A stretch of 5,872 nucleotides of DNA from Candidatus Bipolaricaulota bacterium (GTDB lineage Bacteria; Bipolaricaulota; Bipolaricaulia; UBA7950; UBA9294). Where the stretch lies: the NCBI GenBank assembly GCA_030612485.1, contig JAUWNS010000146.1, forward strand, positions 1 through 5,872, read 5' to 3'. Under the pieces are notes generated by a model. That model ran no database searches and had not been told where the DNA came from. It saw nothing but the letters and a program-made list of their open reading frames with translations. Shown here in pieces: positions 1 to 5,678 of the stretch (the first letter of the stretch is position 1; every line of letters begins with the position of its first letter). Both the position numbers and the translations under genes were made by a program.

Positions 1-518
1 GGAATCCAACCAGGGCCCGACACACGATACGCACTGATGAACACCATCAACAACAACGTCCACGCCAGAAGTGGTGCAACTGCTGTCCCCACTAGATACA
101 GTGGAACACTGAACAGAATGTCGCCCACGCTCCCAGCCATAAGAATCACCCCGGCCTGGGAGACCGTCCACCATGCAAGACCCCCGATGATAACCGCGTA
201 AACGAGGGCCGTGATCAGTGCGAAGGCGAATCGAGCAAGCACGTGCAAATACCCGCTCGGAGGACTGAGTAACAGCACCTGATACTGCCCCTGGCGCGTC
301 TCTCCGCGGATTCGGCCGATCATTAAACACAGGACGAGTACGCCAATCAGCGCTGCACCGGTGAGGAGACCAGCTCGAACACCTAGCCGCTCCCCAATTT
401 CTGCAAGTCGCACCTGATGCATGCCCCACGCCCAGAAGGCAAGCGATCCGATAAGTGCTGCTGCCCACACCCGGGAACGCCGGTACTCAAGCCAAAGCAG
501 TGTTTTGAACCTCTTCAT
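1..518 (-). CDS. ABC transporter membrane permease, ABC-2-like, N-terminal part (runs off window)
   Basis: My translation of the minus strand from the ATG at 518-516 stays open for 172 codons to the window edge, so the C-terminus is missing. It begins MKRFKTLLWLEYRRSR, a short basic amphipathic start typical of ABC-2 type permeases. Hydrophobic membrane segments follow at about residues 17-33, 52-68, 94-118, 122-150 and 151-164. The start codon overlaps the ATPase stop as ATGA, and a GGAGGTG ribosome binding site lies 5 bases upstream, so the two proteins are probably made in fixed ratio from one message. By position it is the transmembrane partner of the ATPase, forming an exporter under the upstream GntR repressor. 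The family call rests on topology and operon context rather than a signature motif; the substrate cannot be read from the sequence. Confidence 0.8.
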   Translation of the reverse strand, partial: MKRFKTLLWLEYRRSRVWAAALIGSLAFWAWGMHQVRLAEIGERLGVRAGLLTGAALIGVLVLCLMIGRIRGETRQGQYQVLLLSPPSGYLHVLARFAFALITALVYAVIIGGLAWWTVSQAGVILMAGSVGDILFSVPLYLVGTAVAPLLAWTLLLMVFISAYRVSGPGWI

Positions 519-1195
519 CCCAGCACCTCCCGGAAGGCATCGACCACACTCTTGCCCTGTTCGCGCAGCTCCTCCGCTTGTGTGTCCAGAGCCAACCGCC
601 CATCGCGCAGGTAGATAACGCGCTCGAACAACCCTTCGGCTTCCGCTACCTCGTGGGTCGAAAGGAGGATCGTCTCGTCGGTATGCCACTCACCCACCAA
701 GGACGTCAGGATCTTCTCGCGCGAGAGCAGATCTATCCCTGCCAACGGCTCGTCGAGCAGGTAGAGCTTTGCATCGCGCGCCAGTGCCATTGCCAGACGC
801 AACCGGCCGCGTTCGCCCTTCGACATTACCTTTGTTTTTCGTCGCGGGACATCGAGTGTGTTAAGCAGCTCACGAAAGCGGCTGCAATCGAAATCGCCGT
901 ACAATCCTGCCATGAAGCGCTCGGCATCCGCCGGCGTCATCCAGGCGTAGAGCGAATCGGTCTCGCCGAGGTAGACGATCTTTGCCCGATTGCGACGCGG
1001 CGGACCGTTAAAGGCCATCACCTTACCTTCGGTAGGGGTCAGTAGACCCGCAAGCAGCTTCAGCATCGTCGATTTTCCACTTCCATTAAGTCCGAGCACA
1101 CCAACGATCTCGCCAGCGGGAAAATCGAGTGTCAGTCCCCGCACGCCCTCGGCCTTGTAGTAACACTTGGTCACGTTATTTAGTTTCGCCAGCAT
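515..1195 (-). CDS. ABC transporter ATP-binding protein, YtrB/BcrA-like exporter type
   Basis: This is a 226-residue single nucleotide-binding domain that powers the adjacent permease at the inner face of the membrane. Motifs in order: Walker A GLNGSGKST at residues 35-43; a Q-loop region IVYLGE at 73-78, with Glu where the canonical Gln sits; a signature loop MSKGERGRL at 124-132 instead of LSGGQ; Walker B LYLLDEP at 144-150 with catalytic Glu149; D-loop AGID at 152-155; and the switch His181 in LLSTHE. The SKG-type signature and Q-loop Glu are usual in GntR-linked and BcrA-like ABC-2 exporters, so the enzyme looks active. The ATG at 1195 lies inside the gntR 3' end (20-base overlap) and has an AAGGAGGT site 5 bases upstream. 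The substrate is unknown; related systems handle peptide antibiotics or cell-envelope stress. Confidence 0.93.
   Translation of the reverse strand: MLAKLNNVTKCYYKAEGVRGLTLDFPAGEIVGVLGLNGSGKSTMLKLLAGLLTPTEGKVMAFNGPPRRNRAKIVYLGETDSLYAWMTPADAERFMAGLYGDFDCSRFRELLNTLDVPRRKTKVMSKGERGRLRLAMALARDAKLYLLDEPLAGIDLLSREKILTSLVGEWHTDETILLSTHEVAEAEGLFERVIYLRDGRLALDTQAEELREQGKSVVDAFREVLG
524..530 (-). promoter_or_regulatory. Ribosome binding site of the permease gene
   Basis: The minus strand reads GGAGGTG here, inside the 3' end of the ATPase gene, 5 bases before the permease ATG at 518. It supports that start and translational coupling through the ATGA overlap. Confidence 0.75.
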
Positions 1196-1562
1196 TCAGC
1201 ACCTCCTTCAGGACGGAGATCCCTTCCGAACTTGGAATCCCCAACCGTCTGATCTCCCACGCATAGATTGTTGCTGCAGAGTGGAGCATCTCTGCGCGCA
1301 TCACCGCAACGGGCGCATCTTTACGCACAAACGTACCCAGCCCCCGCCGTTTCTCGATCACACCCTGCCTTTCCAGCTCCATGTAGGCGTGGACCACCGT
1401 GTTCGGGTTCACCCCTAGTATTTGCGCCAACTCCCTCGCCGAGGCCAACTTCTCTCCCGGTGAAAGATCACCGCGCGCCAGAGCTCGGCGCACGTTCTGC
1501 GCGATCTGTACGAAGATCGGTCCTGCGTTCATGTCGAGAGTCCAGTCTTTCTTCTTCGTCAT
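1176..1562 (-). CDS. GntR-family transcriptional repressor, YtrA subfamily
   Basis: A 128-residue DNA-binding protein, the usual short YtrA-type length. The winged helix-turn-helix covers about residues 14-80: PIFVQIAQNVRRAL, the conserved loop GEKLASARELA (residues 36-46), the recognition-helix stretch GVNPNTVVHAYMELERQG (50-67), and the wing KRRGLGTFV (71-79). A short helical tail follows, with no large effector domain, as expected for YtrA members, which dimerise through this tail. It heads the operon with the ATPase and permease and most likely represses it. The start codon lies inside a perfect 40-bp palindrome that is the probable operator, which argues for autorepression. No ribosome binding site precedes the ATG, and the likely -10 box ends 8 bases upstream, so the message is probably leaderless. 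Met11 is a possible later start but also lacks a binding site and would remove conserved N-terminal residues. Confidence 0.93.
   Translation of the reverse strand: MTKKKDWTLDMNAGPIFVQIAQNVRRALARGDLSPGEKLASARELAQILGVNPNTVVHAYMELERQGVIEKRRGLGTFVRKDAPVAVMRAEMLHSAATIYAWEIRRLGIPSSEGISVLKEVLNAGETK
1201..1208 (-). promoter_or_regulatory. Ribosome binding site of the ATPase gene
   Basis: The minus strand reads AAGGAGGT within the last codons of gntR, 5 bases before the ATPase ATG at 1195. It fixes that start and shows that the downstream gene is translated efficiently although the repressor gene lacks such a site. Confidence 0.85.
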
Positions 1563-1594
1563 AGTGTACTAGTATACTAGTACACTATGACGAA
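1555..1594. promoter_or_regulatory. 40-bp perfect palindrome, probable GntR/YtrA operator
   Basis: The left arm TTCGTCATAGTGTACTAGTA (1555-1574) is followed without any spacer by its exact reverse complement (1575-1594). Symmetry breaks at 1554/1595. Inside are symmetric AGTGTA (1563-1568) and TACACT (1581-1586) half-sites with 12 bases between them. From memory, AGTGTA/TACACT half-sites with similar spacing are the operator of Bacillus subtilis YtrA. The palindrome covers the gntR start codon and the candidate -10 box, so a bound repressor dimer would block the promoter directly. Perfect symmetry is sequence fact; operator function is inference from position and family. Confidence 0.85.
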
Positions 1595-1600
1595 AATCAA
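1571..1600 (-). promoter_or_regulatory. Promoter of the gntR-ABC operon
   Basis: Reading the minus strand, TTGATT (1600-1595) and TATACT (1576-1571) are separated by 18 bases and resemble sigma-70 -35 and -10 boxes (4 and 5 of 6 matches). The -10 box lies inside the palindrome. The expected start of transcription is near 1563-1565, within a base or so of the gntR ATG at 1562, so the transcript would have essentially no leader. Confidence 0.6.
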
Positions 1601-3049: not shown

Positions 3050-3259
3050 CTACCACGTTATCGAAACCAGGGCCACCCCGGCGATAATCAGCAATACGCC
3101 TATGGCAGAGCAACGAGAAGGTCGTTCCTTCAGTATGAAAACGCTCGCCACAAATCCGAACAGTACCACCAGTCCCCGAATGGAGGGAACAAGATTAGCC
3201 GGCACCCGTTCGAGGGCGTTCGCCGCCGTGGCGTGCAGTCGTGCGGCGGTGAACTTCGA
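3050..3259 (-). pseudogene. C-terminal remnant of a DMT/EamA-family transporter
   Basis: My translation of the minus strand gives 69 open codons after TGA-TAA and ending in TAG. It reads as the last part of the second EamA repeat: ALERVPANLVPSI, then the hydrophobic helix GLVVLFGFVASVFIL, the family turn LKERPS, and a final helix GVLLIIAGVALVS. The same order closes the intact DMT protein in this window, but the sequences differ, so this is another family member. There is no credible start codon or ribosome binding site, and consecutive in-frame stops lie just upstream. The gene is therefore decayed, with perhaps three quarters of its length lost. It sits upstream of ppnP on the same strand and probably contributes nothing. 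Confidence 0.65.
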
Positions 3260-3449: not shown

Positions 3450-3457
3450 CGTTTTTT
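3434..3457 (+). terminator. Terminator-like hairpin with T6 directly before a ribosome binding site
   Basis: CGATTC (3434-3439) and GAATCG (3446-3451) form a perfect 6-bp stem with loop GTAATA, followed at once by six T (3452-3457). This is the form of a short intrinsic terminator on the plus strand. No gene upstream on the plus strand needs one, and the T-run abuts the next gene's ribosome binding site. It may attenuate upstream transcripts, or be a palindromic operator over the candidate promoter. Confidence 0.45.
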
Positions 3458-3466
3458 GGAGGTGAT
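3458..3466 (+). promoter_or_regulatory. Ribosome binding site that fixes the start of the secreted-protein gene
   Basis: GGAGGTGAT is a nine-base match to the complement of the 16S rRNA 3' end. GGAGG lies 8 bases before ATG 3471 but only 2 before ATG 3465, and it overlaps the TTG at 3456. It therefore selects 3471. Confidence 0.85.
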
Positions 3467-3470
3467 GGAA

Positions 3471-5678
3471 ATGCGTCGGAAAACCTGTCAATACGCTCTC
3501 CTCTCAGCCTTTCTAGTTGTCAGAATATTGTTTTCTGTCCTAGGATTCGCAGAAGAAAGCTGTGCATGCTACGACCAGCCCGATGACCCGTGCATCGCAC
3601 AGGCATTGACCCTGACGAGTATCGAGTTCCCTCATCAGGTTTTAAGAGACGGTGAATACGTGGATTCATGCTTCCACGACGCCTTGTATGAGTTCGGCGA
3701 AAACTCGGAGGTATGGGTCATCATCCAGGTTGATCCGGGAGGAAATTGTTACGAGTGTGCGCAAACATACATCCTGTATCGTCCGAGGTTGAATGTGAAA
3801 AGCGGAGAGGACTTCGAGTTTGCGGTGAATGACCCTGGGTTTACAGCGAGCAACGTCGTCTTTTCCATGTCTGAATGCAGCCCTCGCACTCCCTATAAAG
3901 TAACCGCAGCAATCATTGAGGAAGATCAAAACTACACGGATGTGCTGAAACGGCTTGCCAAAATCGTTCCTCTACGTGGCTTTGCCGTTCTCAATACGAC
4001 GGGGAGTCGCAAAAAGGAAACCGCAGAAGAAAAAGGCTGGTCGATCAGGATCGAAGCCCCGATCCTCCAGAATATCTACCATGCGATCGTCTACGATGCC
4101 TATCAAGGGAACAAACCTGAAGATGAATGGGAGCGCAACAGCAATGACATAGTGCTGAGGATCACCAGCTGGCCAGTGCACGGCCTTGACTTTGTCGGTC
4201 TGCGAAAATCACCTAGATTGCCGAAAGAGACTGGAGAAATACGCTTGCGTACTAGCGCTTCGTCAGAAGAAGTCTCTGGAGACTTCGGATGCTCCCGCGA
4301 GGCCGCCGCGCGTGAGACGCAGGCCGAAGCGTTTCACAAAACCGCGACGATGAATAACTCTCCAGGGGCACCCCATCCACCACCGCTGCAGCAGATCATC
4401 AACAACTCCCCTTCGGGGTTTCATTGTTATGGCCCTGGATCGGCGAATCTTCCCAAAAACAGTGTCGGGATGGAGGTTACCAAGCGTACAATAGTCAACG
4501 CCGGACCGAACAACAGCATCGTTATCTTGAAACTCGCGACCGTGGTGATCCGGTTTAAGGATTACTCGGACTACGTTTACTGGAATGACGTAGAGGAATG
4601 TATCGATCAGGAGGGGAACATCACCTCTGGAACTTACGATCGCGGGGATGGAGCCTCTCGGATTGGCTCCAAACGTTCACGTTCCCGCAGCGACTTTTGG
4701 AAGGCGGATATACTACAAACCCATCGGTACGTGTGGGGCAGCTCCGTGGGCTCTCCCCTCGCTCTGTCGGAGATTATTGACCTATCGACTGCTGATGGGC
4801 CTTCTGTGGATGAGATAGTGATCACCACCGGTGCGGGAGGAACGCTGGATCTCACCGGGCTTGGACCTGTAAGCAGCCTCTTTGGCACGTCAGGGAGTGT
4901 AAAACCATCGCTTGTTGCCAATGATGCGATCACGATCTATGCCGATGATATCCTTCTTGATCCCGGGGACTCCTTGTCGGACTTGATGAGCCCTGTACCC
5001 ACCGTCAAGCCTGGGATCGATGGATTCCACCTCATCCTCCCTGAGGGGGTAGGGGTGCTGACCGGTGAGGATATTCTCCCGATCGGGGTGATGAGTTGGG
5101 CGAGCAGTCCCCAAACTGTGTCGTTATCCTGGCAGGATAGCAGAGGGTGGGTAGCACCCGGCACGATGCCGGTGTACCTGCCGTCTGGAGGCATGACGTT
5201 CGTCAACCTATTGGTCCATGTGCCGGAGGGAGCTGATCTAGTCTCTTCCTCCAGCATGCTCACGTTCACCGGAATCTCGCAGTCGCTCGGTTCCACTGAA
5301 AGCATTTGCGAGCTGATTGCGTCCACGTCGGTGGATGCGGATGATGTACTTGCTCAACCGACTGAAGAGGCGTCCGCGGAACCGGCCGTTGCCGAGGAAC
5401 CCCCGGAACCGGGCATCCCCGAGGAGATCTTGACGTGCACCGAAGACCTAGGAGAAGCATCCGGCACCGACTACAAGAATAGCGGCTTTCGCCGGCACAA
5501 AGTATCCCCGTCAAAGCGTCTAAAATTCTTCAAAGACGAAATCGATGCCTACTTGGACTGCAACAAGCTTGGACCCTGTGCACGAACGGTGAAGACCTGG
5601 TTGCAACAAGCTTCGCTGGAGCTACAGAAGGAGCTGGCAGAGATCTTCTACACGGCATTTCAGAAAGCCAACCGGTAG
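3471..5678 (+). CDS. Large exported cysteine-rich protein of unknown function
   Basis: I do not recognise this 735-residue protein. Residues 1-27 form a signal peptide: MRRK, a hydrophobic core to VLGFA, likely cleaved before Glu28. The mature N-terminus is cysteine-rich (Cys31, 33, 41, 67, 93, 96, 136), including CAC and CYEC, which suggests disulfides or metal binding outside the cytoplasm. The middle has few cysteines (274, 319, 377), a Pro/Asn-rich linker near 300-318 and an Arg/Ser stretch SRIGSKRSRSRS (396-407). Residues about 530-606 follow the pattern of extracellular Ig-like/NEW3 beta-sandwiches: VSLSWQDSRGWV, then YLPSGGMTFVNLLVHVPEGA, then LTFTGIS. An acidic linker (about 628-655) leads to a charged, helical C-terminal domain with Cys697 and Cys703. 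There is no lipobox, C-terminal membrane anchor or LPXTG motif, so it is secreted or periplasmic. It is monocistronic. The frame extends to TTG 3456, but the ribosome binding site selects ATG 3471. Confidence 0.85.
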   Translation: MRRKTCQYALLSAFLVVRILFSVLGFAEESCACYDQPDDPCIAQALTLTSIEFPHQVLRDGEYVDSCFHDALYEFGENSEVWVIIQVDPGGNCYECAQTYILYRPRLNVKSGEDFEFAVNDPGFTASNVVFSMSECSPRTPYKVTAAIIEEDQNYTDVLKRLAKIVPLRGFAVLNTTGSRKKETAEEKGWSIRIEAPILQNIYHAIVYDAYQGNKPEDEWERNSNDIVLRITSWPVHGLDFVGLRKSPRLPKETGEIRLRTSASSEEVSGDFGCSREAAARETQAEAFHKTATMNNSPGAPHPPPLQQIINNSPSGFHCYGPGSANLPKNSVGMEVTKRTIVNAGPNNSIVILKLATVVIRFKDYSDYVYWNDVEECIDQEGNITSGTYDRGDGASRIGSKRSRSRSDFWKADILQTHRYVWGSSVGSPLALSEIIDLSTADGPSVDEIVITTGAGGTLDLTGLGPVSSLFGTSGSVKPSLVANDAITIYADDILLDPGDSLSDLMSPVPTVKPGIDGFHLILPEGVGVLTGEDILPIGVMSWASSPQTVSLSWQDSRGWVAPGTMPVYLPSGGMTFVNLLVHVPEGADLVSSSSMLTFTGISQSLGSTESICELIASTSVDADDVLAQPTEEASAEPAVAEEPPEPGIPEEILTCTEDLGEASGTDYKNSGFRRHKVSPSKRLKFFKDEIDAYLDCNKLGPCARTVKTWLQQASLELQKELAEIFYTAFQKANR

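Follow-up and report, generated by a model that had tools for sequence, protein, structure and literature searches.

A probable YtrA-type GntR operator nested with a predicted leaderless promoter in a perfect 40-bp palindrome of Candidatus Bipolaricaulota

The stretch of DNA analysed here (5,872 nucleotides, referred to throughout as the window) carries a regulator gene of the GntR family, gntR, followed on the same strand by ABC transporter genes. The genes concerned are as follows.

1176..1562, minus strand: gntR, a YtrA-type GntR repressor of 128 aa (ORF, Pfam, model and structure matches)
1560..1562, minus strand: ATG start codon of gntR and predicted (leaderless) transcription start
515..1195, minus strand: ABC transporter ATPase (PF00005), overlapping the end of gntR (ORF, Pfam)
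1..518, minus strand: membrane protein, putative ABC permease, running off the window (ORF reading)

The gntR product matches the GntR winged-helix family (PF00392) in its N-terminal part with 52.3 bits against a cut-off of 27. Its AlphaFold model (mean pLDDT 89) shows a winged helix followed by two C-terminal helices (residues 85-106 and 111-126), and the predicted protein of 128 aa thus has, as is characteristic of the YtrA subfamily, a short two-helix C-terminal part (about 50 aa). A Foldseek search with this model matched 3neu, the C. glutamicum structures 2ek5/2du9 and Sulfolobus YtrA (6sbs). The operon with ABC transporter genes, another feature of this subfamily, is also present, and an ATPase homolog is the next gene after gntR in all 34 loci examined (L007 and L093 are one gene). 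No Pfam match was obtained for the portion of the membrane protein that lies inside the window. The search for protein relatives of gntR returned 295, of which 120 were listed, most without an organism name; those named among the matches listed are nearly all Candidatus Bipolaricaulota or Bipolaricaulis, with one Thermotogota. The nearest relatives (P0001-P0011) share 90-98% protein identity. Upstream of gntR lies a co-directional EamA gene. We also note at 3050-3205 a 51-aa frame resembling the end of the EamA profile (27.8 bits, just below the Pfam cut-off of 28.2), which is probably a remnant, and at 3456-5678 an ORF of 740 aa with a hydrophobic N-terminal stretch resembling a signal peptide and no Pfam match at E 0.001.

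The start of gntR falls within a long inverted repeat, the parts of which are listed here together with the predicted promoter elements.

1555..1594, no strand: perfect spacerless 40-bp palindrome (inverted-repeat computation)
1563..1586, no strand: putative 24-bp core operator AGTGTA-N12-TACACT, the conserved part (sequence comparison)
1555..1562, no strand: outer arm in gntR codons 1-3, ATGACGAA on the minus strand (sequence, ortholog comparison)
1587..1594, no strand: outer arm upstream of gntR, mirroring codons 1-3 (ATG ACG AA) (ortholog comparison)
1571..1576, minus strand: predicted -10 box TATACT, at the operator centre and 8 nt from the ATG (promoter scan, ortholog comparison)
1595..1600, minus strand: predicted -35 box TTGATT, with an 18-nt spacer (promoter scan, ortholog comparison)

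The arms 1555-1574 and 1575-1594 are complementary at 20 of 20 positions with a spacer of 0, exactly as a preliminary description of this DNA had reported. In 1000 windows drawn from a first-order Markov model perfect arms reached at most 12, and arms of at least 20 are expected 6e-9 times per window; chance does not account for the palindrome as a whole. The GC content of the palindrome is 35%, compared with 55% for the window. The same description had placed the -10 box, the start site and codons 1-2 of gntR within the palindrome. The predicted -10 box (TATACT, minus strand, 1576-1571) and the ATG (1562-1560) are indeed covered, and the overlap with the start site at the ATG stands, but that start site is itself a prediction; the extent was given slightly short, since the palindrome takes in codon 2 completely and two further bases, in codon 3. 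Nothing in the window matched Rfam at the gathering threshold, and a viral collection yielded one distant relative and no exact copy of the 24-mer. A divergent plus-strand gene starting from the mirrored ATG was considered (a 35-aa frame) and rejected because the promoter scan gave no plus-strand promoter. The core 1563-1586 also reads as three tandem 8-bp units AGTNNACT, in which NN is GT, AT and AC, and the outer two of these are themselves near-palindromes.

A palindrome scan of the related Bipolaricaulota genome G012 (1.6 Mb, with 5 kb counted twice and 25,300 bases masked) found 18 as the longest perfect arm and 15 as the next, with arms of at least 11 occurring five times. In this genome a 36-bp perfect palindrome (L126, about 6763-6798) lies right after a TTGACA-TAGACT promoter, a second copy of its centre (CACCATCCATATGGATG) stands directly before the -35 box, and an ORF downstream resembles a ribbon-helix-helix regulator on reading of its sequence. 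This site is a probable second case of a long, strongly symmetric operator in Bipolaricaulota. At a separate locus, L018 (about 5303-5340), a 38-bp GC-rich perfect palindrome over which the scan showed no ORF of at least 90 aa is perhaps a terminator.

The inner 24 bp of the palindrome read AGTGTA-CTAGTATACTAG-TACACT, giving two distant half-sites with a spacing of 12 in an operator of the length known for YtrA proteins. The target of B. subtilis YtrA is given as AGTGTA-13bp-TACACT in PMC8060467 (citing Salzberg 2011), and PMC6746942 describes the motif of the YtrA subfamily as typically 24 bp, so that the range of 12-20 bp previously quoted for most GntR operators is inapplicable here. With up to 3 mismatches the 24-mer is present in nine of 18 Bipolaricaulota genomes, in a single copy each and just upstream of gntR; the other nine have no match within 3 mismatches. 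For a closer comparison we used 19 Bipolaricaulota orthologs, consisting of the window, L001-L014 and L029, which were taken from the top 80 among 117 relatives, and additionally L097, L099 and L100. Automatic placement puts the palindrome centre at -12 relative to the ATG in 14 of these, and the number rises to 15 when L002, placed at -16 by the same procedure, is set to -12 by hand. The operator is shifted in L029 (centre -14), L099 (-18) and L100, for which the automatic placement was -16, but the 24-mer ends 8 nt before the ATG and the centre is hence at -20. L007 (G096) has neither an operator nor a credible promoter at the expected place. Perfect symmetry of the core is rare, all 12 pairs being matched in two of 59 sites and also in L029, which is outside that set. 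The earlier proposal that this is an operator holds in that the inner 24 bp (1563-1586), judged by comparison, are very probably the site of the adjacent GntR repressor, overlapping the -10 box, the predicted start and the ATG. It does not hold for the full 40 bp: in the alignment of ortholog upstream regions that had been suggested as a check, the AGTGTA/TACACT core is kept together with one flanking T-A pair, and the full outer symmetry is not.

The same motif occurs outside the phylum. We scanned 65 loci from other phyla, with Thermaceae among them, over the 250 nt that precede related gntR genes. AGTGTA/TACACT, allowing up to 2 mismatches, is present at 46 of the 65, compared with 3, 3 and 1 for three scrambled pairs of half-sites in the same scan; at the remaining 19 loci no motif was found under these settings. 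The half-site spacing is 12 in 44 of the 46, which include Halanaerobiales, Clostridia, Treponema and 11 of 15 Thermaceae. In the latter group, all loci but L016 and L017 agree with the 24-mer at no fewer than 16 of 24 positions, and each of these 13 (of 15) has GGAGG or GAGGTG between operator and gene. The 44 sites with spacing 12 follow the pattern T-AGTGYACTA-N6-TAGTRCACT-A. The search partly favours the half-site letters of this pattern but does not favour its inner CTA/TAG, its flanking T-A pair or its spacing. The comparison yields a clear probable operator of YtrA-type repressors, which seems to extend across several phyla. In an Eremiobacterota sequence (L059, about 2976-2999), AGTGTATTAGTACACC lies immediately 5' of ATGACAC; this may be a further case of an operator adjoining a start codon.

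The predicted promoter occupies the same bases. In 16 of the 19 Bipolaricaulota orthologs (window included) 8 nt separate a -10 box from the ATG, and in 15 of the 16 this box is the operator centre; in L099 and L100 the best -10 box is at the right end of the operator and not at its centre, and the gap to the ATG is 6 in L099 and 10 in L029. TTGAC serves as the -35 box in 14 of the 19. Within the 15 main-form rows the window has the poorest -35 box (TTGATT, 4/6), and it alone has a -35/-10 spacer of 18 nt, compared with 16-17 in the other 18 rows. Shine-Dalgarno-like strings occur in two of the 19 orthologs, with none before gntR in the window. A -10 box directly before the start codon and no Shine-Dalgarno sequence are the marks of a leaderless gene, with TANNNT reported about 12 bp upstream of the start in PMC3160421 and, for Deinococcus, a -10 box about 6-7 bp from the ORF in PMC12340547; we accordingly predict a leaderless promoter built into the gntR operator, with transcription starting at the ATG. 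Such signals seem to be the less common kind in the part of G012 that we tested (400 kb), where a small TANNNT bump at -15 (15 compared with about 5 per position) accompanies a distinct Shine-Dalgarno peak that spans -12 to -10; this counts against a phylum-wide habit. At the operator centre, positions 11, 12, 14 and 15 are the same in all 15 Bipolaricaulota sites (position 13 in nine of 15), but these four positions are weak across the 44 outside sites. In Bipolaricaulota it is therefore probably the -10 box, and not the repressor, that constrains the centre.

In our view, the most consistent interpretation, to which we assign a probability of roughly 0.8, is that the core is an autoregulatory YtrA-type GntR operator fused to the leaderless promoter of the gntR-ABC operon. 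What the analysis shows is the palindrome, its conserved core, the single place of that core in the genomes that have it, the nested promoter geometry, the operon and the predicted fold of the repressor; GntR binding, repression, the start site and the inducer are inferred. One extended GntR dimer would bind the two AGTGTA half-sites, which are separated by about two helical turns. The promoter of gntR-ABC would reside in the same DNA, its -10 box forming the operator centre, and transcription would start at or beside the ATG that abuts the operator; because the promoter is nested in this way, the bound dimer would directly block RNA polymerase. Some signal would then release the dimer; for B. 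subtilis YtrA this is lipid II-binding antibiotics or cold shock. The preliminary description had suggested two dimers on the palindrome, but a second is not needed, since the centres of the half-sites are 18 bp apart, a calculated distance of about 61 Å, which fits one extended dimer such as C. glutamicum YtrA (62 Å between recognition helices, according to PMC6746942). On this interpretation Bipolaricaulota would provide a conserved example in which the start codon and the predicted transcription start form one element with the operator and the -10 box, and comparison with Thermaceae, which have a Shine-Dalgarno sequence after this operator, makes a switch between leaderless and led initiation testable at one regulated operon.

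The outer 8-bp arms, by comparison of the sites, lie outside the conserved operator, and their symmetry is an unusual residue: rare, non-conserved and without a certain explanation. All eight outer pairs are matched in the window only among the 19 orthologs. Seven-pair runs past pair 13 occur in two of 59 sites, the window and a Treponema site (L065), compared with about 0.09 expected (0.071 + 0.023) with swapped partners, and the arm of the window (TTCGTCAT) differs in sequence from that of L065. Template switching is described for imperfect inverted repeats in PMC7202029, PMC3820800 and PMC8604942, and two long runs of differing sequence fit such homogenisation of the arms; we regard this as a plausible lead, at somewhat less than even odds, and not as a demonstration. 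The gntR site of L065 (about 2888-2927) has AGTGTA/TACACT and perfectly mirrored outer arms, with mismatches in the core. A broader and rather doubtful idea is that autoregulatory operators of strong symmetry perfect themselves: a template switch from one arm to the other would copy coding bases beside the start codon to the upstream side. If so, symmetry would grow past the bases read by the repressor and displace the -35 box, which would explain both the mirrored ATG ACG AA of the window and its poor TTGATT at an 18-nt spacer. A functional role for the outer arms seems to us unlikely.

That the outer arms are chance extensions of a 26-bp operator is possible, though we hold it with some reserve. 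It agrees with the lack of any general excess of outer pair matches, since across 58 sites (window excluded) pairs 14-20 match in 128 of 406 cases and pairs 21-27 in 127 of 406. The five pairs GTCAT/ATGAC are complete in three of the 19 Bipolaricaulota sites (window, L001 and L097), but when partners were swapped among these sites runs of 3 and 4 were expected 2.8 and 2.6 times and were observed 3 and 3 times, so that GTCAT faces ATGAC no more often than with swapped partners; these yield equal short runs because nearly every site has ATGAC downstream. The two seven-pair runs are the evidence against chance.

It is considerably less probable that the full 40 bp form a specialised high-affinity operator in which the outer arms give extra contacts or hold a second dimer. 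GTCAT...ATGAC in three of 19 sites, a pattern that requires at least two changes on the gntR tree, would suit such an operator, as would the secondary half-sites beyond the core that aid binding of Sulfolobus YtrA in the account of PMC6746942. However, the near-equal matching of pairs 14-20 and 21-27 speaks against it, the outer arm is by eye unlike a half-site, and base-specific contact is disfavoured by the different sequences of the window and L065, the sole other seven-pair extension.

An RNA hairpin hiding the start codon, whether the RNA comes from the gntR promoter or reads through from the EamA gene on the same strand upstream, is very improbable: a through-transcript would fold strongly (-27.5 kcal/mol for 40 nt and -32.5 for 80 nt; z -8.0 and -7.0), but the predicted leaderless transcript has the ATG at its 5' end, includes 8 nt of the palindrome and shows no unusual folding in its first 60 nt (z -0.34), so that only a transcript from further upstream, such as EamA read-through, would carry the hairpin, and the imperfect core symmetry of nearly all sites favours an operator, which tolerates mismatches better than a hairpin does. 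Insulation from read-through is possible as a side effect of the palindrome. A length of 40 bp is short for a cruciform-deletion effect. The argument that selection must hold the symmetry against such deletion is accordingly weak, the examples of instability in PMC4245961 and PMC7999016 concerning palindromes of hundreds of bp.

Returning to the reading of the core as an autoregulatory operator fused to a leaderless promoter, we compared it with known systems. A literature search for GntR or AGTGTACTA did not show AGTGTACTA among the five matches listed, the ranking of which favoured multi-term matches. In B. subtilis, as PMC8060467 describes, YtrA is likewise a GntR regulator whose gene shares an operon with ABC transporter genes, and it represses its own operon through the same half-sites as in the window. 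The spacing in the ytr operator is 13 rather than 12, and unlike the ytr site that of the window has perfect symmetry and extended arms and is fused to a predicted leaderless promoter and start codon. The site of the YtrA-type autorepressor YtrASa of Sulfolobus acidocaldarius spans the transcription start (PMC6746942), as predicted in the window, but this system differs in having a compact dimer, a 14-bp core and an archaeal promoter. The leaderless genes of Deinococcus-Thermus and other bacteria reported in PMC12340547 and PMC3160421 have a -10 box directly before the ORF, as in the window, in which, unlike those genes, the predicted -10 box is at the same time the middle of a probable repressor operator and is accompanied by a -35 box. 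The type of operator is thus already known, and the nested architecture of operator, promoter and start is a neat addition to it.
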